Below, piece by piece: positions 6,809 through 63,129 of a DNA stretch of 64,000 nt. The stretch covers positions 62,001 through 126,000 of the forward strand of contig CACZFO010000001.1 in assembly GCA_902780455.1 (NCBI GenBank), in the 5' to 3' direction. Each line of letters opens with the position of its first letter. Position 1 is the stretch's first letter. A model generated the notes under the pieces. That model worked only from the letters and a program-made list of their open reading frames with translations. It had not been told where the DNA came from and made no database searches. The position numbers were made by a program, and so were the translations under genes. Source of the DNA: an uncultured Bacteroidia bacterium (lineage in GTDB: Bacteria > Bacteroidota > Bacteroidia > Bacteroidales > UBA932).

Positions 6809-7348
6809 TTATTTCAGCTTCTTTTTCTGATATACTACAAACTGGTATTCTATTTTGTTTTCTTCATCAGAAAAAATTTCAGAAGTCTGAACTGCTTCCC
6901 ACTCTTCAGGATCTATTTCCGGAAAGAATATGTCCGCCTGCTTTGCAACTGCCTTGATGTGAGTGATGTACAGGCGGCCGGCATATTTGAAGGCAGCTTT
7001 GTAGACACTGCCTCCGCCGATTACAAAAAACTCCTCCTTCCTCTTTCTGCTCAGCGATTTCAAAAGAACCTCCAGGTCTTCCGCCTGCTCTATGCTAGTG
7101 CCGGAAGGAGTGCCGTCTTTCTTGAACTTCGGGGACTGGGGCAGATCAAGTCTTGAGCGCGAAACCACAATGTTCCTTCTTCCGGGAAGCGGCCTTCCTA
7201 TGCTCTCGAAGGTCTTGCGCCCCATTATGACAGGATGCCCTGTGGTAGTGGCCTTGAAATACTTCAGGTCACCGGCCAGATGCCAAAGAAGCTGGTTGCC
7301 GTTACCTATGGCTCCGTTTTCCGCTACGGCGGCAATCAGTGAAATCAT
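6809..7348 (-). CDS. folA: Dihydrofolate reductase
   Basis: 179 aa. The start [20 protein letters not shown], the [14 protein letters not shown] helix, the [16 protein letters not shown] segment that binds NADPH and the C-terminal strand pair are typical of chromosomal DHFR. It reduces dihydrofolate to tetrahydrofolate with NADPH, regenerating the cofactor oxidised by ThyA. Its ATG (7346-7348) overlaps the thyA stop codon in an ATGA arrangement, so translation is probably coupled. Length is slightly above the 160 aa E. coli enzyme. Confidence 0.95.
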
Positions 7349-8139
7349 ACGGCAACAGGGGCTTTTATTGCGGGATAAGGATCATATCCCACCAGTTCAA
7401 AATCTTCATAATTGAAGGAGAAGATGTCTTTCTGGTCTCCGTGTATGACCATTCTTGGAAGAGGTCTCGGAGTTCTGGAAAGCTGCTCCTTAACCTGTTC
7501 AAAATGATTCAAGTATATATGGGTATCTCCGGTGGTGTGGATGAAATCGCCGAGAGAGAAACCGCACACCTTGGCTATCATCATCGTAAGCAGCGCATAG
7601 GAAGCGATGTTGAACGGAACACCCAGGAAGGTATCCGCACTTCTCTGGTAAAGCTGGCATGAAAGCCTGTTGTCGGCCACATAGAACTGGAACAGGCTGT
7701 GGCAAGGAGGAAGGGCCATACTGTCTATCTGTGCTACGTTCCATGACGAGATGATGATGCGCCTGGAGTCGGGATTGTTTTTGAGCATGTCCATGACATT
7801 GGAAAGCTGGTCGACGGTTTTGCCGTTTCCGCAGTCCCACCTTCTCCACTGCGCGCCGTAAACCGGTCCGAGGTCTCCGTTTTCATCTGCCCATTCATCC
7901 CATATGCTCACTCCGTGGTCTTTGAGATACTTGATGTTGGTATCTCCGTTGATAAACCACAGAAGCTCGTAAATTATTGATTTCAAGTGAACTTTCTTTG
8001 TGGTAAGAAGAGGGAATCCCTGGTTCAGGTCAAACCTCATCTGATGGCCGAATATGCTTTTTGTGCCCACTCCGGTGCGGTCTTTCTTGATCACACCTTC
8101 ATCCATTATGCGCCTTAGGAGATCCAGATACTGTTTCAT
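7345..8139 (-). CDS. thyA: Thymidylate synthase
   Basis: 264 aa from the ATG at 8139, the same length as the E. coli enzyme. A longer frame upstream has no ThyA similarity and runs into the previous gene. Visible motifs are the N-terminal [13 protein letters not shown], the catalytic cysteine in [13 protein letters not shown], the phosphate-binding [13 protein letters not shown] and the [12 protein letters not shown] nucleotide site. It methylates dUMP to dTMP using methylene-tetrahydrofolate. It is followed by folA with a 4-base overlap and preceded by the EEP-family gene 10 bases upstream on the same strand. Confidence 0.97.
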
Positions 8140-8149
8140 ACGAACAAAT

Positions 8150-9061
8150 TTACTGTTTTTTCTCCACTTTGAGAACAATGGGAAGGTGGTCACTGGCTCC
8201 GCCCTCGAACTTAGGGCCGGTAAATGTCCTTCTGGTTTTGTTCCCAAGATACTTCCTGTCGTCCTGAAGAAGGTGCCCAAAAGACAATATCCCTACGCTC
8301 CCCTTCACCGACCCGGACACCAGGAACTGGTCCAGCATCTCCCATTTTCCGTTGTATTTATGTGTTCCTTTTATCTCCGATGAAGAGCCTTTCAGTGAAT
8401 CCCTGAGCTTTGCCGAAAGGTTTATCAACGATGCCACATGCTCAAGCGGTGCCGACTTCGGAGAATCGTTGAAATCCCCCATCGCGATTATAACGGCATC
8501 GCTGTCCTCCTTCAGTATGGAATCCGCTGCGGCTTCCAGGAGTTTTGCCGCCAGCATCCTCCTGCCAAGAGATTTCTTTTCTCCTCCGAGCTTTGACGGC
8601 CAGTGGTTGACAAACACGTGAACCGTATCTTCCACTTTCGCGGAATACCCCTTTGCGTAGAGGATGTCCCTTGTCTGGAAAGACCTTATCCTCAGGAACG
8701 ACGTGTCTTTGATGTAAAATTCTTCTCTGCGATAAAGCAGGGCTACGTCTATTCCCCTGCCGTCGGGAGAGTCCTTGTGGATTACGCCGTAGCCAAGCCT
8801 GGAAAGGGGTGTGTCGTAAATGAGGTTCTTAAGGGTCCTGAGGTTTTCAACTTCACAGACTCCTATGAGTGAAGGGTACTGGTTTTCCTGGTCCCTGACC
8901 GCCATTATGGTTTTGGAGATAAGGTCTCTTTTTGCCTTGAACCTCTTCCATGTCATGACTTTTGGGTTGTCTTCTATTCTTTCCGCTCCCGACGGGTAGA
9001 AAAAATTCTCCAGGTTCCAGAACATGACCAGAAGAGCCGCCATCCTGATTGCTTTTTCCAT
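8150..9061 (-). CDS. Endonuclease/exonuclease/phosphatase (EEP) family protein
   Basis: 303 aa. The N-terminus is hydrophobic ([15 protein letters not shown]) and could be a weak signal or anchor, but it also carries the family WNLENF strand. Catalytic motifs follow the EEP order: GVCEVEN (metal-binding Glu), [10 protein letters not shown], the NHWPSK histidine, GDFNDSP (Asp and Asn), and the C-terminal SDHLPIVL with the general-base His. The family includes metal-dependent nucleases and phosphodiesterases; the substrate is unknown. It is the first gene of a leftward group with thyA, folA and the NSS transporter. Confidence 0.85.
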
Positions 9062-9155
9062 GACTGTAAAAATAAGTTGGAAGCGGTTTTGCCGGCTGCC
9101 ACCCGAGCAATTTATCCTGTCCGCCCTTCAAGTTTTTCTTTGAGGCTCTTTTTGC

Positions 9156-9163
9156 TAAATTTG
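9156..9163 (+). promoter_or_regulatory. TAnnTTTG promoter element for ychF
   Basis: TAAATTTG followed by CA, 24 bases upstream of the ychF ATG. It lies inside a longer possible frame beginning at 9077, which argues that the true start is 9188. Confidence 0.6.
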
Positions 9164-9187
9164 CACAATCAAAAAAATAGGAATCTT

Positions 9188-10291
9188 ATGTCTGTAAAGT
9201 GTGGTATAGTAGGCCTTCCGAATGTGGGGAAGAGCACTTTGTTCAACTGTATAAGTTCAGCCAAGGCAGAGGCTGCCAATTTTCCGTTCTGCACCATTAA
9301 TCCACAGATAGGATCTACAGCCGTTCCTGACAAGAGGCTGGAAACCCTGGTGGAGATGGTCCATCCGAGGAACGTGGTTCCGGCTACCGTGGAAATTGTG
9401 GACATAGCCGGTCTCGTGAAGGGGGCAAGCAAGGGAGAGGGCCTTGGAAACCAGTTTCTTGCAAATATCAGGGAAACCGATGCCATCCTCCATGTACTGA
9501 GATGTTTTGACGATCCTAACATAGCCCATGTAGACGGCAGCGTAGATCCGGTAAGAGACAAGGAGGTCATAGATACGGAACTTCAGCTGAAAGACCTGGA
9601 AACCGTTGAGAACCGTCTGGCCAAGGTGGGCAAGCAGGCCAAGATGGGAGCTGACAAGGAAGCCCAGAAACTGTGCAATGTCCTGGAACAGTACAAGGCC
9701 GTTCTGGAAAAAGGGCAGAACGCCAGGAGCGTGGTGTTTGACAACAAGGAAGACATAAAGCTTGCAAAGAGCCTGTTCCTTCTTACGGCAAAGCCGGTGA
9801 TGTACGTGTGCAACGTAGATGAGGACAGTGCGGCAAACGGCAATGCGTATGTAGATGCAGTGCGGGAGGCAGTCAAGGACGAGGGTGCTGAAATCCTCGT
9901 GCTTGCCGCAAAGATAGAGTCTGACATCGCCGAGATGGAGTCTTTTGAAGACAAGCAGATGTTCCTGCAGGACCTGGGGCTTGAGGAATCCGGCATCGTA
10001 CGTCTGGTGCAGAGTGCATACAGGCTGCTGGGGCTTCAGACCTACTTCACCCAGGGAGAACCGGAGGTGAGGGCCTGGACATTCAGGAAGGGCGACAAGG
10101 CCCCTCAGGCCGCCGGTGTGATACACTCGGATTTTGAAAGAGGCTTCATCAGGGCCGAGGTGATAAAGTATGACGATTTTGTAAAATACGGAAGCGAGAG
10201 CGCCTGCCGTGCTGCCGGAAAGCTCTCTACCGAAGGTAAGGATTATGTGGTCCAGGACGGAGATATAATGCATTTCCTGTTCAATGTTTAG
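9188..10291 (+). CDS. ychF: Redox-regulated ATPase YchF (Obg-like)
   Basis: 367 aa from ATG 9188. The start is set by homology (MSVKCGIVGLPNVGKSTLFN) and by the promoter just upstream. Walker A is GLPNVGKST and the G3 region is DIAGLVKGASKGEG. The G4 position lies in the MYVCNVDE stretch rather than a canonical NKxD, in keeping with the ATP preference of this family. A TGS domain ends the protein (EVRAWTFRKGDKAPQAAG onward). YchF associates with ribosomes and affects stress responses. It stands alone, with ppiD downstream under its own promoter. Confidence 0.95.
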   Translation: MSVKCGIVGLPNVGKSTLFNCISSAKAEAANFPFCTINPQIGSTAVPDKRLETLVEMVHPRNVVPATVEIVDIAGLVKGASKGEGLGNQFLANIRETDAILHVLRCFDDPNIAHVDGSVDPVRDKEVIDTELQLKDLETVENRLAKVGKQAKMGADKEAQKLCNVLEQYKAVLEKGQNARSVVFDNKEDIKLAKSLFLLTAKPVMYVCNVDEDSAANGNAYVDAVREAVKDEGAEILVLAAKIESDIAEMESFEDKQMFLQDLGLEESGIVRLVQSAYRLLGLQTYFTQGEPEVRAWTFRKGDKAPQAAGVIHSDFERGFIRAEVIKYDDFVKYGSESACRAAGKLSTEGKDYVVQDGDIMHFLFNV

Positions 10292-56017: not shown

Positions 56018-57532
56018 ATGGGAAAGAAAGTTTTACTTATGATCCTCGACGGATGGGGATTGGGAGCACATGACAAGTCAGATGTCATATATACTCAAGG
56101 ACAACCTAACATTGATGCCCTCAGGGCAAGATATCCGCATTCCCAGCTGATGGCCTGCGGAGAAGATGTAGGTCTTCCGGACGGGCAGATGGGCAACTCC
56201 GAAGTTGGTCACCTGAACATAGGTGCAGGAAGGGTTGTCTATCAGGACCTGGTTAAGATAAACAAGGTATGCCGTGAGCACAAGATGCTTGAAAACAAGG
56301 AGATAAAGGCCGTGATGGAGTATGCGAAAGAAGGTCATGACCTGCATCTGATGGGACTGGTGTCAAGGGGCGGAGTCCACAGTTCGCTTGAGCATGTTTT
56401 CGGTTTCCTCGATGCAGCAAAAGAGTGCGGACTTGAAAGGGTTTTCGTACACTGTTTCATGGATGGAAGAGATACCGACCCTCATAGTGGAAAGGGCTTT
56501 GTCAAAGAGCTTGAAGACCACATGGCAAAAAGCTGCGGCAAGGTTGCTTCTGTTTGCGGAAGATTCTACGCCATGGACCGCGACAAGAGATGGAACAGGA
56601 TCAAGGAAGGCTATGACCTTCTCACAGAAGGCAAAGGAGCACAGTTCACATCAGCCCAGGATGGTATCCAGGCCTCTTATGACCAGGATGTTACAGATGA
56701 ATTCATTAAGCCGGTAAGCATCGTTGAAAACGGAAAACCGGTTGCAACAATCAAAGCAGACGACGCTGTCATCTTCTTCAATTTCCGCAACGACCGCGCA
56801 AGGGAAATGACATCTGTCCTTACCCAGAAAGACATGCCGGAAGAAGGGATGCACACCATTCCGCTTTACTACTGCTGCCTTACACCTTATGATGACAAGT
56901 TCAAAGGTCTTCACATCCTGTTCGACAAGGAAAACGTGCATAAGACTCTGGGAGAAGTCGTTGCAGCCGCAGGAAAGCGTCAGCTCAGAATCGCTGAGAC
57001 AGAAAAATACGCCCACGTCACATTCTTCTTCAACGGCGGAAGGGAAGAGCCTTTTGAGAATGAAGACAGGATACTGGTGGCTTCTCCAAAGGTTGCAACA
57101 TACGATCTGCAGCCTGAAATGAGCGCTCCGGAAGTTGCTGAAAAACTCATAGAGGCCATCCGTACCGGAAAGGAAGACATGATCATCCTGAACTTTGCCA
57201 ACGGCGACATGGTGGGCCATACGGGAGTCTATCCGGCTATCTGCAAGGCAGTTGAGACCATAGACAAACTTACGGGAAAAGTGGTGGAGGAGGCAAGGAA
57301 GATGGGATATTCTGTTCTCATTACCGCAGACCACGGCAATGCAGACTATGCCATCAATCCGGACGGAACTCCGAATACCGCCCATTCGCTCAACCCTGTA
57401 CAGTTTGTAGTGGTTGACGATGATGTCAAGGAAGTTGAAGACGGAAGGCTCTGCGACATAGCTCCTACCATCCTCAAACTGATGGATATTCCTCAGCCGC
57501 AAGAAATGACAGGAAAGGTTCTCATAAAGTAG
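56018..57532 (+). CDS. gpmI: 2,3-bisphosphoglycerate-independent phosphoglycerate mutase
   Basis: 504 aa. Alkaline-phosphatase-fold motifs: [11 protein letters not shown] with the first metal Asp, [17 protein letters not shown] with the phosphoserine nucleophile, [26 protein letters not shown], and the metal ligands in [12 protein letters not shown]. It interconverts 3- and 2-phosphoglycerate in glycolysis with two manganese ions. It is cotranscribed with rnr. A perfect 16-bp palindrome begins right after its stop codon, and a remnant of the dnaE start lies 23 bases beyond. Confidence 0.96.
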
Positions 57533-57548
57533 TTTTATCGCGATAAAA
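57533..57548. repeat. 16-bp perfect palindrome after gpmI
   Basis: TTTTATCGCGATAAAA is a loopless perfect dyad directly after the gpmI stop. It looks more like a protein site or insertion boundary than a terminator, since it has only a CGCG core and no loop. Confidence 0.5.
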
Positions 57549-57555
57549 AAACAAG

Positions 57556-57648
57556 ATGATACACCTGCATCTGCAAAGCCATTATTCCATTCAGGACAGG
57601 AGTAAGGAATCCAGATATCTCCTCTTGTTATTATGTCTCCTAAAATAA
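57556..57648 (+). pseudogene. Remnant of the dnaE 5' end, joined to foreign sequence
   Basis: An ATG frame begins MIHLHLQSHYSIQD, close to the DnaE start MSTPFVHLHLHSHYSILDG, and then runs into unrelated codons and a stop after 30 residues. At DNA level 57560-57592 matches 59519-59551 in 32 of 33 bases. Upstream both copies share CAAGATGA; the intact gene has 12 extra in-frame bases after it. The PHP motif (HLHLHSHYS) is kept except His to Gln. It is probably the old dnaE start left after insertion or recombination, and is not functional. Confidence 0.8.
57560..57592 (+). repeat. 33-bp direct repeat of the dnaE start, left copy
   Basis: One mismatch to 59519-59551. The two copies bound the AT-rich block, 1959 bases apart. 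Confidence 0.85.
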
Positions 57649-57782
57649 TTGAATCAATGGGATTAGAATTTTTTTGGGGAACAAAAATCACAGAACCAAA
57701 TACTGGGTCATTTTGTATTCAGTGGAATAATACCGATTTTATAGATGTTTCACCAATACCATTAGGCTGCTACACCAATTAA
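57606..57782 (+). pseudogene. A1: 5'-truncated homologue of the A2 gene
   Basis: The frame is open from 57606 (after a stop at 57603) and contains one ATG, at 57633, giving only 49 residues. From about KIIESMGLEFFWGT through IQWNNTDFIDVSPIPLGCYTN it aligns without a break to the C-terminal half of A2 (SIINEMGLQLYWGT, IQWNNTEYTELTPILLGCYT). The first 60 or so residues of A are missing, cut off where the dnaE remnant begins. It is therefore a broken copy. B1 follows 16 bases later, in the same A-then-B order as A2-B2. Base composition is strongly AT-rich. Confidence 0.7.
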
Positions 57783-57798
57783 TGAAATATATATAATT

Positions 57799-58446
57799 AT
57801 GAAGTGTTTTTTTTACACAATAATATTATTAGCGGTATGTCAGTCAAAAGCATATTCTCAATCTTTTGAAGAATTACCGCTAGACAAACAAAACACTTTT
57901 TTCGAAGGGTACTGGAAATCTGTTTCTAGCAATAGTGATACAATTTTCATTTTAAAAATTAAACATTTTGAAACGGAGAGAGGCAATGTATATATTGGTT
58001 CATATCTTTTAAAGTACAATGAGACACTAGATGATAAACTATCTGATCTTTCAGATTTTCTACCCTTTTCCTCTTTCGAGGATTTTAAAAGAATAGATTC
58101 GATAAAGTTCTACCAAAATAAGGTAAAGCAATGGTATTCAATATTTCTCACGGGGGGGACCTCTCATGTTATGAGAGGATCTTTTTATGATTATATAAAA
58201 GGGCATCGCAACGGGCAAGTAACACTTGAGGTTTTATCTGCACAAAATGGTAGTGAAACAATCACTTGGTCTTTAACGATAGGAGATGGTACGTATTACT
58301 ATCCCAACGGTTGTGAAAATGAACTTTTTACTTTCTCTGTTCCTACAAGTACAGTATTTACAAAAATATATAACCTTAGAGAGTTTGAAAATGAAGGGAT
58401 CGTTCTCCCCCCATTTCCGCGACAGTTAGAGGTTCATCAACCCTAA
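57799..58446 (+). CDS. B1: secreted protein of unknown function, paralogue of B2
   Basis: 215 aa with a signal peptide (about 1-20, KAYSQ end). It is followed by a beta-rich domain with FFEGYWKSVSSNSDTIFILK, then GNVYIGSYLLKY, RGSFYDYIKGHRNGQVTLEV, ITWSLTIGDGTYYYPNG and a C-terminal GIVLPPFPRQLE. It is clearly paralogous to B2 at 58804. No catalytic motif is apparent. The FFEGYWK start recalls small exported DUF6705-type proteins of Bacteroidota, but I cannot confirm this. It is far more AT-rich than its neighbours and contains a G7 run at 58152-58158. An immunity role is possible. Confidence 0.65.
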   Translation: MKCFFYTIILLAVCQSKAYSQSFEELPLDKQNTFFEGYWKSVSSNSDTIFILKIKHFETERGNVYIGSYLLKYNETLDDKLSDLSDFLPFSSFEDFKRIDSIKFYQNKVKQWYSIFLTGGTSHVMRGSFYDYIKGHRNGQVTLEVLSAQNGSETITWSLTIGDGTYYYPNGCENELFTFSVPTSTVFTKIYNLREFENEGIVLPPFPRQLEVHQP

Positions 58447-58457
58447 AAAACACGAGT

Positions 58458-58802
58458 TTGAACTTGGATATCCTCATTAAAGACAGTACGACATTTCATA
58501 ACTATATAAATAATTATTTGATAAATTCGAACACCCCTGATTGGTATAATAAACAAAGGCAAGTATTGATAGATGATTTTGGTGATTTATATTCTGAAAA
58601 GAAAATATACAATAACCGCAATAACACATATGAGTACATAGACGTAATAAAATCTATCATTAATGAAATGGGACTACAATTGTATTGGGGTACTTTAATT
58701 AATGGCAATTCAGAACAAAAACTAATACAATGGAATAATACCGAATATACAGAGTTAACCCCGATACTTCTTGGATGTTATACTCATATTCAAAGATTAT
58801 AA
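58458..58802 (+). CDS. A2: unknown protein, TTG start only, possible orphan C-terminal module
   Basis: 114 aa if TTG 58458 is used. The frame is open back to 58395 without any ATG, and the first ATG lies halfway through, at GLQLYWGT. So either TTG initiates or this is a detached C-terminal domain. No signal peptide or membrane segment. Composition is polar and Asn/Tyr/Ile-rich, with DWYNKQRQVLIDDFGDLYSEK and IQWNNTEYTELTPILLGCYT. It ends one base before B2, an arrangement like toxin-then-immunity pairs. I do not recognise the family. A truncated homologue, A1, precedes B1. Confidence 0.45.
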   Translation: MNLDILIKDSTTFHNYINNYLINSNTPDWYNKQRQVLIDDFGDLYSEKKIYNNRNNTYEYIDVIKSIINEMGLQLYWGTLINGNSEQKLIQWNNTEYTELTPILLGCYTHIQRL

Positions 58803-58803
58803 A

Positions 58804-59475
58804 ATGAAAAACACAAGACAAATAAAACAGATTTTTCTTGTTGCTTTAATTGTATTATCAAGAACCACTGTTGTATTATCTCAAGATTTAAATGGTCTTG
58901 TAACAGAGGAACAGAAATCATTTTTTGAAGGGTACTGGAAATATACATCATCTACAAGGGATACGATATTTATAGTTAAGTTAAAGTATTTTGAGATGAC
59001 TTTTGGTGGAGAGATATTTAATTATTACATAGGTTCATATCTATATAAAAACCCTTCTCTGGAAGAGGATAACTTATCTATTCTTACAGACTATATGCAG
59101 GAGAGCACCTATGATGATTATTATAACAAGTATTCAACACGAAATGTTAGAGAGAATTATATACCCATCCGAGTATGCAATTATTCATATAATGACATGA
59201 GTGGCGTTTTTTATGATTATACAAAGGACCATATGAATGGTGAGGTAACCCTTTCTGTAATTTCTATCGAAACGGGAGCAGAAACCATAAGTTGGTCTTT
59301 AAAGATCGGCGAAGGAGTATATATGTACGCAGAGGGGGAACAAAATAGGTTGTTTTCTTTTTCTGTTCCAACCAAACTGATATTGACCAAAGTACATAAT
59401 TTAAAAGAGTTTGAGGATATTGGAATAATACTTCCTCCTTTTCCCAGGAAGATGGAATTAAACCCCAAAGATTAA
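58804..59475 (+). CDS. B2: secreted protein of unknown function, paralogue of B1
   Basis: 223 aa from ATG 58804; a longer frame from 58771 overlaps A2 and lacks a signal. The signal peptide is about residues 1-25 (VVLSQD end). The domain matches B1 throughout: FFEGYWKYTSSTRDTIFIVK, FNYYIGSYLYKN, SGVFYDYTKDHMNGEVTLSV, ISWSLKIGEGVYMYAEG, GIILPPFPRKMEL. B2 has a few extra residues after KYFE. The conserved core and divergent middle suggest family members matched to different partners. It is 27 bases upstream of dnaE. Confidence 0.65.
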   Translation: MKNTRQIKQIFLVALIVLSRTTVVLSQDLNGLVTEEQKSFFEGYWKYTSSTRDTIFIVKLKYFEMTFGGEIFNYYIGSYLYKNPSLEEDNLSILTDYMQESTYDDYYNKYSTRNVRENYIPIRVCNYSYNDMSGVFYDYTKDHMNGEVTLSVISIETGAETISWSLKIGEGVYMYAEGEQNRLFSFSVPTKLILTKVHNLKEFEDIGIILPPFPRKMELNPKD

Positions 59476-59502
59476 ATTAAATGCAACAATAAGTATAGCA
59501 AG

Positions 59503-62500
59503 ATGAGCACTCCTTTTGTACACCTGCATCTGCACAGCCATTATTCCATTCTTGACGGAATGGGAAAGATAGAGGATTATATAGCCAGGGCAATGGAACT
59601 TGACATGCCGGCCATGGCCCTTACGGACCACGGCGTGATGTACGGAATCAAGGACTTTCTGGATTCGGTGAAGAAGGCTGAGAAGAAGACCGGGAAAAAG
59701 CTGAAGCCGATAGTTGGTTGCGAGGTATATGTTGCACCGGAGAGCCGCCTGATAAAGAAGGCTTATCCAGACAAGAGAAGCGCTTACCACCTGATACTTC
59801 TGGCAAAGAACCTAATAGGTTACCATAACCTTATGAAGCTGTCTTCCCTTGGTTTTACGGAGGGTTTCTACAACCGTCCGAGGGTGGACCATGAATTAAT
59901 CCAGAAGTATCACGAGGGGCTTATCTGCTGTTCTGCCTGTCTTGCGGGAGAGATTCCTCAGGCCATACTGAAAGGCAACATAGAAGAAGCACGTCAGACG
60001 GCGCTTTGGTACAAGAACATATTCGGAGAAGATTTTTACTTTGAGATCCAGAATCACAACTGCAAGGTACCAGGCCAGGACAACATAGTCTTTGAGGAGC
60101 AGCAGAGGGTGAACCCTGTGCTTTATGCATTTTCTGAAGAGCTTGGTATCAAGTGTGTTGCAACCAACGACTGTCACTTTGTAAAGAAAGAGGACGGGCC
60201 GGCACACGACCTTTTCATCTGCATCAACACGGCCAGCAAGCTCACAGACCAGAACCGCCTGCACTATACCCAGGAAGAGTACATGAAGAGCGGTGACGAA
60301 ATGGCCGAACTCAATTACGGACATCCGGAAGTAATTGCCAATACGCTGGAGATAGCAGACAAGGTAGAAAGATACGAGATAGACATAAAGCACATACTTC
60401 CGCACTTTGACATTCCGGAAGAGTTTGCAGATTCAAACGAATACCTCAAGCATCTGGTTTACGAGGGAGCAAGGAAACGCTATGGCGAGAACATACTGCC
60501 GAGCGTGAAGGAAAGGATAGACTTTGAGCTGGATACCATCCGCAAGATGGGTTTTCCGGACTACTTCCTCATTGTCCACGACTTCATAAACCATGCACGT
60601 TCAGAGGGTATCTGGGTTGGACCGGGAAGAGGTTCCGCAGCCGGCAGCGTTGTGGCATACTGCCTGACAATCACCAATATGGACCCTATCAAGTACGACC
60701 TTCTGTTTGAGCGTTTCCTCAATCCGGACCGTATATCCATGCCGGATATCGACATAGACTTTGAGGAGGAAAGACGCGGCGAGGTCTATGAATACGTGGA
60801 GAAGAAATACGGCAAGGACCATGTTTCCCATGTGGTGACCTTTGGCACCATGGCTACCAAACAGGCTATCAAGGATGTTGCAAGGATAGAGGACCTTCCT
60901 CTGCCCATATCCAACAAGCTGGCCGGCATGGTGCCTACAAGGAGTTTCCAGGAAGATGTCAAGACCAAGGACAAGGACGGAAAGGAAGTGGTTGAAACAA
61001 AGGACTACAAGCCCAACTTCACCAACTGTCTGAAATTCGTTGAAGATTTCCGCAAGGAATATGAAGATTCGCCGGATCCGAAGATCAAGGAAACACTTCA
61101 TTTTGCAAGGGAACTGGAGGGAACCATCCGACAGACCGGAGTACACGCCTGCGCCGTAATCATAGGACCTCACAACCTGATGGAGCACATACCGGTATCG
61201 GTGGCCAAAGGTGTGGAGGGATGGATATCCCAGTACGAAGGAACCAGGATAGAAGATGTAGGAATGCTCAAGATGGACTTCCTGGGCCTGAGAACCCTCT
61301 CCATACTGAAGGAAACTCTTGAGAACATCCGCAAGCATACCGGAAAGCAACTTGACATAGACAGCGTCCCTCTTGACGACAAGGCGACCTTCAAGCTCTT
61401 TGGAAGGGGTGATACCGTTGCCACATTCCAGTTTGAAAGCCCTGGAATGCAGAAATGGCTCAGAGACCTTCATCCTTCAAGATTTGAAGACCTCATAGCC
61501 ATGAATGCCCTCTACCGTCCGGGTCCTATGCAGTACATTCCAAAGTTCGTTGCCAGGAAGACGGGCAAGGAGGCCATTACCTATGAACTTCCTGAAATGG
61601 AGGAAATCCTTTCCGATACTTATGGAGTTACCGTCTACCAGGAGCAGGTGATGCTGCTTTCTCAGAAACTTGCAAAGTTCACCAAGGGCCAGGCAGATAC
61701 CCTGCGAAAAGCCATGGGTAAGAAGAACCTGGAGAAGATGCAGGAACTGGAGGAAAAGTTCCTTGCCAACGGTGTTGAGAACGGGTTCTCAAAGGAAATC
61801 CTGCAGAAGATCTGGAACGACTGGAAGGAATTTGCAAAATATGCGTTCAACAAGTCCCACTCTACCTGCTATGCGTGGGTGGGTTATCTGACAGGATACT
61901 TCAAGGCCCATTATCCGGCAGAGTTCATGGCCGCCAACCTTACAAAGAACTCAACTGACACAAAGGAGATCACCGTCCTGATGGACGAGTGCAAGAGGAT
62001 GGGGCTGAGCGTTCTCGGTCCGGACGTGAACGAGGGCGGAGTGAACGCCACCGTAACGGCAAAGGGCGGGATAAGGTTCGGCCTTGCGGCAATCAAGGGT
62101 CTGGGAACCCAGGTTGCTGAAGATATAGTCAAGAACGCTCCTTACAAGGATATCTACGACTTTGTGGAAAGGGCTAGCCGCCAGAACATGAACCGCAAGA
62201 CTCTGGAGAGCCTGATATATGCCGGAGCGTTTGATTCTTCATTCCCAGAAATCCGCAGGGACCAGTATTTCATGCCGAACACGAAGGGCGAGATATTCCT
62301 GGACAGCCTTATCCGCTACAGTCAGGACTTTGGCTCCATTGACAGCAGCATAGAATCTCTCTTCGGCGACCAGGATGAGGGATTCCAGCTCAAGAAGCCT
62401 GAGATTCCGGCACGCCAGGGCGAGATGAACCTTGTGGAATTCCTCAAGAAGGAGAGGGAACTGGTAGGTATGTACATATCTTCACACCCTCTGGATGTCT

Positions 62501-63129
62501 ACCGTTTTGAGCTGGAAAACTTCTGTTCGGTATCTCCTGGCGAACTGTCTCAGCTTATTAAGCAGGCATCCGGAATGCAGCTTGACGAGAACCAGGATTA
62601 CTTTACCGGAGGTCTGGTGACGAATGTGAACGAGAGGCTTTCAAAGAACGGCCGCCCGTTTGTGGACTTTACCCTGGAGGACTTTTCTTCCAGCATGGAT
62701 TTCCGCCTTTTTGGCAAGACCCACGAGCAGAGCATCGGCTACATCAAGGACGGAAGCGCCGTGTTCATGAAGCTCAAGATCAAAAAGAGGTTCAACGATG
62801 AAACCTACGAGCCGAGGATAGAATCCATCCGCTTTCTGGCAAACATCAAGGAAACCGCACTGAAATCTCTGGAACTCATTATTCCGGCCCAGATGATCAC
62901 CAAGGAGTTCAGGACGGACCTGATGAAGCTGATAAAGGAAAACCACGCCTCCCGTAACAGCGAGGGAGTGGGCAAGACTCCTGTCAAGATGAAAATCGTT
63001 GAAAAGGAGAAGGGATTTTCTCTCGACTACGACACCAAGTTCCTGGTGAGCGTAGACAACAACTTCCTCTCCCAGCTGAGGAAGATGGGAGTTGAGTACA
63101 AGGGAAACGTAAATACTTCGGTGTTCTAG
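59503..63129 (+). CDS. dnaE: DNA polymerase III alpha subunit
   Basis: 1208 aa. It starts with a PHP domain (VHLHLHSHYSILDGMGKIED, ALTDHGVMYGI). The palm carries the catalytic aspartates in ISMPDIDIDFEEERRGEVYEYV, with GPGRGSAAGSVVAYCL nearby. Fingers and a helix-hairpin-helix region follow, with GRGDTVATFQFESPGMQKWL and KSHSTCYAWVGYLTGYFKAHYPAEF. An OB-fold lies near the C-terminus (FTGGLVTNVNERLSKNGRPFVDFTLEDF). This is the replicative polymerase. Its first 16 codons overlap a sequence duplicated at 57560-57592. It ends 4 bases before the convergent thiL. Confidence 0.97.
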   Translation: MSTPFVHLHLHSHYSILDGMGKIEDYIARAMELDMPAMALTDHGVMYGIKDFLDSVKKAEKKTGKKLKPIVGCEVYVAPESRLIKKAYPDKRSAYHLILLAKNLIGYHNLMKLSSLGFTEGFYNRPRVDHELIQKYHEGLICCSACLAGEIPQAILKGNIEEARQTALWYKNIFGEDFYFEIQNHNCKVPGQDNIVFEEQQRVNPVLYAFSEELGIKCVATNDCHFVKKEDGPAHDLFICINTASKLTDQNRLHYTQEEYMKSGDEMAELNYGHPEVIANTLEIADKVERYEIDIKHILPHFDIPEEFADSNEYLKHLVYEGARKRYGENILPSVKERIDFELDTIRKMGFPDYFLIVHDFINHARSEGIWVGPGRGSAAGSVVAYCLTITNMDPIKYDLLFERFLNPDRISMPDIDIDFEEERRGEVYEYVEKKYGKDHVSHVVTFGTMATKQAIKDVARIEDLPLPISNKLAGMVPTRSFQEDVKTKDKDGKEVVETKDYKPNFTNCLKFVEDFRKEYEDSPDPKIKETLHFARELEGTIRQTGVHACAVIIGPHNLMEHIPVSVAKGVEGWISQYEGTRIEDVGMLKMDFLGLRTLSILKETLENIRKHTGKQLDIDSVPLDDKATFKLFGRGDTVATFQFESPGMQKWLRDLHPSRFEDLIAMNALYRPGPMQYIPKFVARKTGKEAITYELPEMEEILSDTYGVTVYQEQVMLLSQKLAKFTKGQADTLRKAMGKKNLEKMQELEEKFLANGVENGFSKEILQKIWNDWKEFAKYAFNKSHSTCYAWVGYLTGYFKAHYPAEFMAANLTKNSTDTKEITVLMDECKRMGLSVLGPDVNEGGVNATVTAKGGIRFGLAAIKGLGTQVAEDIVKNAPYKDIYDFVERASRQNMNRKTLESLIYAGAFDSSFPEIRRDQYFMPNTKGEIFLDSLIRYSQDFGSIDSSIESLFGDQDEGFQLKKPEIPARQGEMNLVEFLKKERELVGMYISSHPLDVYRFELENFCSVSPGELSQLIKQASGMQLDENQDYFTGGLVTNVNERLSKNGRPFVDFTLEDFSSSMDFRLFGKTHEQSIGYIKDGSAVFMKLKIKKRFNDETYEPRIESIRFLANIKETALKSLELIIPAQMITKEFRTDLMKLIKENHASRNSEGVGKTPVKMKIVEKEKGFSLDYDTKFLVSVDNNFLSQLRKMGVEYKGNVNTSVF
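59519..59551 (+). repeat. 33-bp direct repeat, right copy, within dnaE
   Basis: Codes for the PHP motif of intact DnaE. It matches 57560-57592 in 32 of 33 bases. Confidence 0.85.

Follow-up and report, generated by a model that had tools for sequence, protein, structure and literature searches.

A duplicated dnaE start next to DUF6705 genes as a candidate scar of a toxin-immunity cassette in a gut Bacteroidales bacterium

The displacement of toxin genes from their immunity genes, which we propose below for the present locus, is the same model as that proposed for the T6SS immunity arrays of Vibrio cholerae, where one-sided homology lets in a foreign effector-immunity pair and the old effectors are displaced, one of them surviving as a 3' end; the immunity genes stay, and arrays form as a result (PMC5361080). 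In polymorphic toxin systems, a constant N-terminal part is combined with exchangeable C-terminal enzyme domains and a varying downstream partner (PMC3482391). Orphan immunity-like genes are also retained in the rAID islands of gut Bacteroidales, with which a recombinase gene is associated. Homology-facilitated illegitimate recombination, in which homology acts at one end of the incoming DNA and a few bases suffice at the other, has been described as well (e.g. PMC3240628).

The locus studied here lies in a window of 64,000 nt (contig CACZFO010000001.1 of GCA_902780455.1, positions 62,001 to 126,000) from a gut Bacteroidales bacterium. It is like the V. cholerae arrays in that one-sided homology would have admitted a foreign gene pair, and in that the putative effector gene, a lipoprotein gene here called X, has been cut to a 3' scrap while its neighbor, a DUF6705 gene, has been kept. 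It differs from them in its presumed anchor, for which the start of a housekeeping gene on the downstream side (dnaE or a transporter gene) takes the place of the conserved upstream portion of the V. cholerae effector module, and in that this gene start has been duplicated, one copy having been taken over by the lipoprotein gene. X shares its overall organization, including the varying downstream partner, with polymorphic toxins, but the carrier is a lipoprotein of no named family and its toxicity is putative. Immunity-like genes are retained as in the rAID islands, but the recombinase gene is absent from the window's island; homology-facilitated illegitimate recombination would be seen here through its presumed product alone and not in action. 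A literature search did not find DUF6705 named, hence it is not a described immunity family, and a search for islands restoring gene starts gave no match.

The repeated dnaE start in the window

The beginning of dnaE occurs twice in the window, before and after two DUF6705 genes (Table 1). The left copy, TACACCTGCATCTGCAAAGCCATTATTCCATTC, is identical to the right one at 32 of 33 bases, and the repeat can be extended to 38 nt with 92% identity. A whole-genome search with the dnaE start returned the left copy as the sole second match, with E = 2e-8, and a chance match is dismissed because of this value; the 33-bp repeat with a remnant as its left copy, as described in the original prediction, is thus real. 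The ATG of the left frame (57556) follows the end of gpmI (57532) after 23 bases, and in 21 congeneric relatives dnaE directly follows gpmI at a distance of 16-193 nt, which places the left copy at the native position of the dnaE start and bears out the view of the structure as an insertion scar, the site being empty in these relatives. The GC content of the 1.9 kb between the copies is ~31%, against 49% in both flanks, and no transposase or integrase was found there (57533-59502), the absence of a transposase having been noted before; the two full genes in this interval both encode DUF6705 proteins. The left frame, which translates to MIHLHLQSHYSIQDRSKESRYLLLLLCLLK*, is open over 30 codons, and its hydrophobic end may be a leftover lipoprotein signal peptide, by analogy with the fused gene of G003 described below. 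Homology of the left copy beyond 57592 (to GATA, 57617, with small indels) was not significant, being equaled in 135 of 2000 shuffles, and the idea that the remnant and the G003 copy share their last dnaE codon was rejected for this reason.

Table 1. Features of the window's dnaE site and of the transporter islands in two relatives (window positions unless another locus is named).
Feature	Coordinates	Strand	Basis
gpmI, left flank of the site	56018..57532	+	ORF of 504 aa; adjoins dnaE in 21 relatives
Remnant frame opening with decayed dnaE codons (MIHLHLQSHYSIQDRSKESRYLLLLLCLLK*)	57556..57648	+	Analogy with G003 L032:1851-1960
Left copy of the dnaE start	57560..57592	+	32/33 identical to 59519-59551
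C-terminal end of X (lipoprotein gene) of the first cassette; remainder deleted	57639..57782	+	Match to G003 X
DUF6705 gene, intact, first cassette, putative immunity gene	57799..58446	+	215 aa; PF20448 E = 5e-7
Second X gene, C-terminal fragment, 5' side cut off	58458..58802	+	Match to G003 X
DUF6705 gene, intact, second cassette, putative immunity gene	58804..59475	+	223 aa; PF20448 E = 3e-15
Intact dnaE	59503..63129	+	ORF of 1208 aa
12 bases (GCACTCCTTTTG) missing from the left copy, ancestral	59507..59518	+	Same codons in all close relatives
Right repeat copy, within intact dnaE	59519..59551	+	32/33 match to the left copy
G003 transporter-start/lipoprotein fusion	L078 (G003:C7:99000-115000), reverse-complement 7354-9189		
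G010 transporter start fused directly to DUF6705, intact transporter downstream	L080 (G010:C15), reverse-complement 6912-7625		

The original prediction regarded the short start of the left copy (MIHLHL) as ancestral and the 12 extra bases of the intact gene, which give STPFV, as a sign that the present dnaE start came with the incoming DNA. The alignment of DnaE N-termini that it named as a check was run and turned this reading of the short start around. DnaE opens with MSTPFVHLHLHSHYS in the close clade, and all close relatives have MS, two residues and then FVHLHLHSHYSILDG (FVHLHLHSHYS). Because they all carry the longer start, the left copy has lost the 12 bases and the right one did not gain them; the intact gene has the usual start, and the left start is a copy short of 12 bases. 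The loss preserves the frame, and the remnant also carries one nonsynonymous change in the PHP motif. The further suggestion that the right copy stems from a donor allele is unsupported in the window because the two copies seem to represent a single allele: of the dnaE genes compared, the window's own is the nearest to the left copy (32/34, against 31 or fewer elsewhere), and CAAG precedes ATGA in both.

The genomes of the relatives are apparently draft assemblies, one per species, and the six named ones are metagenome-assembled. When 399 genomes of the family were searched for the exact dnaE-start pattern, which is too narrow outside the genus, 17 genomes had one copy each and two copies were found only in G003, an assembly from yak rumen; in this search no relative was seen with a duplicated start lacking a cassette.

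Parallel islands at dnaE and at a nucleoside transporter gene

In G003, gpmI is followed by a normal spacer, 70 bases of the dnaE start, an intact X in frame with them, a DUF6705 gene, and the intact dnaE, whose spacer differs from that before the captured start. The fused gene, a lipoprotein gene of 620 codons in all with the captured start included, runs through the junction (MSTPFVHLHLHSHYSILDGMGKI joined to VIIILVFCFLFSGC) with its frame unbroken. The dnaE codons MGKI in the fusion open with an internal ATG, and either ATG might be used because MGKI can supply the charged start of a signal peptide. The left copy agrees at 69 of 70 bases with G026 and G032, and the right copy at 69 of 70 with G010 and G031, so the two look like different alleles, though only 3-4 sites distinguish them; the last 32 bases of the repeat are identical between the copies. 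A switch point between donor and recipient along the dnaE of G003 was also considered, but the sites are mixed and a clear breakpoint is absent.

G027 and G028 have a reduced island at the same site, consisting of an X scrap and a DUF6705 gene, without a remnant of the dnaE start. Their islands are ~97% identical as far as the first dnaE codons, whereas their gpmI and dnaE genes diverge by ~20%, and G028 clusters with island-free species. Because of this difference between island and flanks, the island moved recently between G027 and G028 by recombination in the flanks, and this is how an island spreads once it has been made. Two other observations were made in this neighborhood. The dnaE of G032 (L090, G032:C2:24000-41000) groups with those of G003 and G026, and the genes on both sides of it group with the G010/G028 clade, indicating from the groupings that dnaE, an essential gene, has been replaced between species. 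In G001 (L075, G001:C27:4000-17000), an X-DUF6705 island separates gpmI from the RNase R gene; it neighbors the window's site, has the opposite direction, and is flanked by a 200-base direct repeat of 82% identity.

A nucleoside transporter gene is the second target. In G003, the first 20 codons of this gene, together with its leader, run in frame into another X (MKSKSKKNGPRIGFMGPKFL joined to GVFFFIFFISLFSC), and DUF6705 and then the intact transporter gene with its own promoter-like sequence follow on the 3' side. G010 has the same start joined directly to DUF6705 (Table 1), G018 carries X and DUF6705 at the same site, with X using its own start, and the plain arrangement is found in at least seven relatives (G000, G016, G020, G026, G027, G028, and G031). 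The captured and the intact leader are alike at 34 of 52 aligned positions and hence are different alleles. The allele of the sister species is the right copy and not the left, the reverse of the situation at G003 dnaE, and the direction of transfer is not reliably readable because the sister-like copy is the left one at dnaE and the right one at the transporter. An internal ATG able to supply the n-region of a signal peptide precedes the join by a few codons in either gene; the join is at AAAGATAG in dnaE and at AAGTTTCT in the transporter gene, and the two "sites" have unrelated sequences. No recombinase gene was found in the dnaE and transporter islands, X and DUF6705 being the sole genes that lie between the copies.

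When each of ~20 further DUF6705 islands from the genus was compared with itself, duplicated gene starts were found only at dnaE and the transporter gene, and the other repeats that were looked at were intergenic or within duplicated DUF6705 genes; start capture is thus not the rule, because it affects only two target genes among some 20 islands. A ~70-base repeat with the core ATTGATTTACAG....CAAAATGT borders DUF6705 cassettes in L063, L067 (G034), and L075 (G001); an exact search for this core in 39 genomes of the genus gave no occurrences beyond cassette borders, and it is possible that the repeat is a cassette-border element. In G034 (L067), DUF6705 genes occupy the space separating a ksgA-like from an Mrp-like gene, and in G022 (L111) this space is taken by an M23-type lipoprotein gene with other partners; it is a shared insertion hotspot whose cargo differs.

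X and DUF6705 as a putative toxin-immunity pair

Both X scraps in the window were recognized because they match the end of the intact X protein of G003. The product of the first has 64% identity to residues 555-599 (E = 1e-16) and that of the second 43% identity to residues 497-600 (E = 1e-21); the TTG start of the second fragment is only formal. Each scrap is followed on its 3' side by a DUF6705 gene, the first of which encodes a protein with 65% identity to DUF6705 of G003. The PF20448 scores of the two, 30.1 and 56.8 bits, are both above the curated cut-off of 24.4, and single-sequence structure prediction for DUF6705 from the window gave a pLDDT of 32. Searches of NCBIfam and sequence searches of solved structures with X and DUF6705 brought nothing useful.

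The X proteins are lipoproteins according to their signal peptides and have a constant N-terminal part. The C-terminal domain of those in G003 and G018 carries the HxHxHTxGxxxPSxxD motif, HSHYHTSGNPRPSIKD or one near it, together with an upstream E, and X-related proteins in G007 (L113), G022 (L111), and UBA1725 (L171) have a C-terminal M23 peptidase instead. Foldseek with the X model, whose mean pLDDT is 50, found no significant match (best E 0.2); BubCD, RadC, and BRCC36 topped the second-look list of the structure comparison, with Z at most 5.9. From the motif and this weak structure match, the domain in G003 and G018 resembles JAMM metallopeptidases. The partner changes along with the domain, the JAMM-like X being followed by DUF6705 and the M23-type X by one or more other small signal-peptide proteins. 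An exchangeable C-terminal enzyme domain on related N-terminal parts and a downstream partner that switches with it are both features by which polymorphic toxin-immunity systems are recognized, and, by analogy with those systems, X probably is an antibacterial toxin whose C-terminal domain can be exchanged, with DUF6705 as its probable immunity gene. X is truncated or absent twice in the window and also in G027, G028, and G010, and DUF6705 is intact every time, with dN/dS of 0.11-0.35 where dS is measurable, pointing to purifying selection. Repeated loss of X beside an intact DUF6705 is as expected for orphan immunity genes, if the analogy holds.

Possible origin of the scar

We lean toward the view that the repeat in the window is the scar of an X-DUF6705 cassette. 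One-sided recombination would have placed this cassette at the dnaE start, and the toxin gene would later have been lost from it while the immunity gene was kept. The cassette, X followed by DUF6705, would land at the start of dnaE, one of its ends joining the chromosome through homologous recombination within dnaE and the other joining just inside the resident dnaE start with the help of a few matching bases, that is, by homology-facilitated illegitimate recombination; AAAGATAG may have served as the microhomology at the dnaE join. In the product, a short dnaE start would stand before X and might provide it with an existing start for its translation, and dnaE would be complete on the far side of the cassette. 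Ordinary recombination in the core genes on either side could then carry islands formed in this way from one species to another. A second cassette would have been added in the window, and both X genes would then have been lost to deletions, leaving both DUF6705 genes and a decaying left dnaE start. One-sided homology with an illegitimate join is proposed because the order of start, cassette, and gene occurs at two unrelated genes without a recombinase. At one end of the insert the homologous gene is continuous, dnaE being intact and collinear and the transporter gene likewise, and the insert holds no recombinase gene. The proposed process is of a known kind and is new in its use of housekeeping gene starts.

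The other explanations divide the same evidence differently. The dnaE start might have been duplicated locally by slippage or unequal exchange, the cassette arriving later between the copies as an unrelated event. The likeness of the window's copies to a single allele (32/34, with the common CAAG) would fit such an order of events, but the second gene of G003 has an identical start-cassette-gene arrangement, the copies are different alleles at G003 dnaE and at the transporter gene, and the cassette-free duplication that should precede the insertion was not seen in relatives (17 genomes with a single exact start, two copies only in G003); we regard this course as unlikely. A recombinase acting in trans might instead have inserted a circular cassette with the dnaE start as its attachment site, the gene being restored on one side. 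An intact restored gene and a repeat at both ends are what such a reaction would leave, and the identical last 32 bases of the G003 repeat could be taken for the attachment site; that stretch is uninformative in this respect, however, because it is conserved in nearly all relatives, and with no recombinase gene in either the dnaE or the transporter islands and a transporter "site" of unrelated sequence, site-specific insertion appears very improbable.

That the remnant is kept for a function, for example, as a short leader frame coupling translation or regulating the dnaE or DUF6705 genes, is suggested by the frame-preserving nature of the 12-base loss, by the open 30-codon frame, and by the captured start heading an intact long gene in G003 and at the transporter. 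In the window, however, the captured gene is gone, the PHP motif has suffered a nonsynonymous change in addition to the deletion, and G027 and G028 manage without any remnant, which makes a retained function quite unlikely. A direct repeat bounding foreign-looking DNA also calls to mind the target-site duplication of a transposon, and a chance match or a misassembly could mimic it. A repeat of 33-70 bases and an insert devoid of the transposase that such a transposon would carry speak against the first of these, the E-value given above against the second, and the parallel structure in the assembly of another species, together with the islands at the site in G003, G027, and G028, against the third, so that this group of explanations is hardly credible.

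Insertion of the cassette by one-sided recombination, the account preferred here, might also have a more general meaning, namely that the capture of housekeeping leaders and starts is a regular landing and expression route for toxin-immunity cassettes. We consider this extension rather doubtful; under it, the conserved gene start would act as the anchor of homology and provide the cassette with a functional start, and the site would stay open to further rounds because the housekeeping gene is restored behind the cassette. If it is true, small competition cassettes could enter the neighborhoods of core genes without a transposase and be expressed at once, and such events could be looked for in any genome by their sequence signature, in which a foreign gene pair is preceded by part of the start of the gene that follows it. 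DUF6705, which has so far been without a function, is put forward as a putative immunity family of rumen and gut Bacteroidales.
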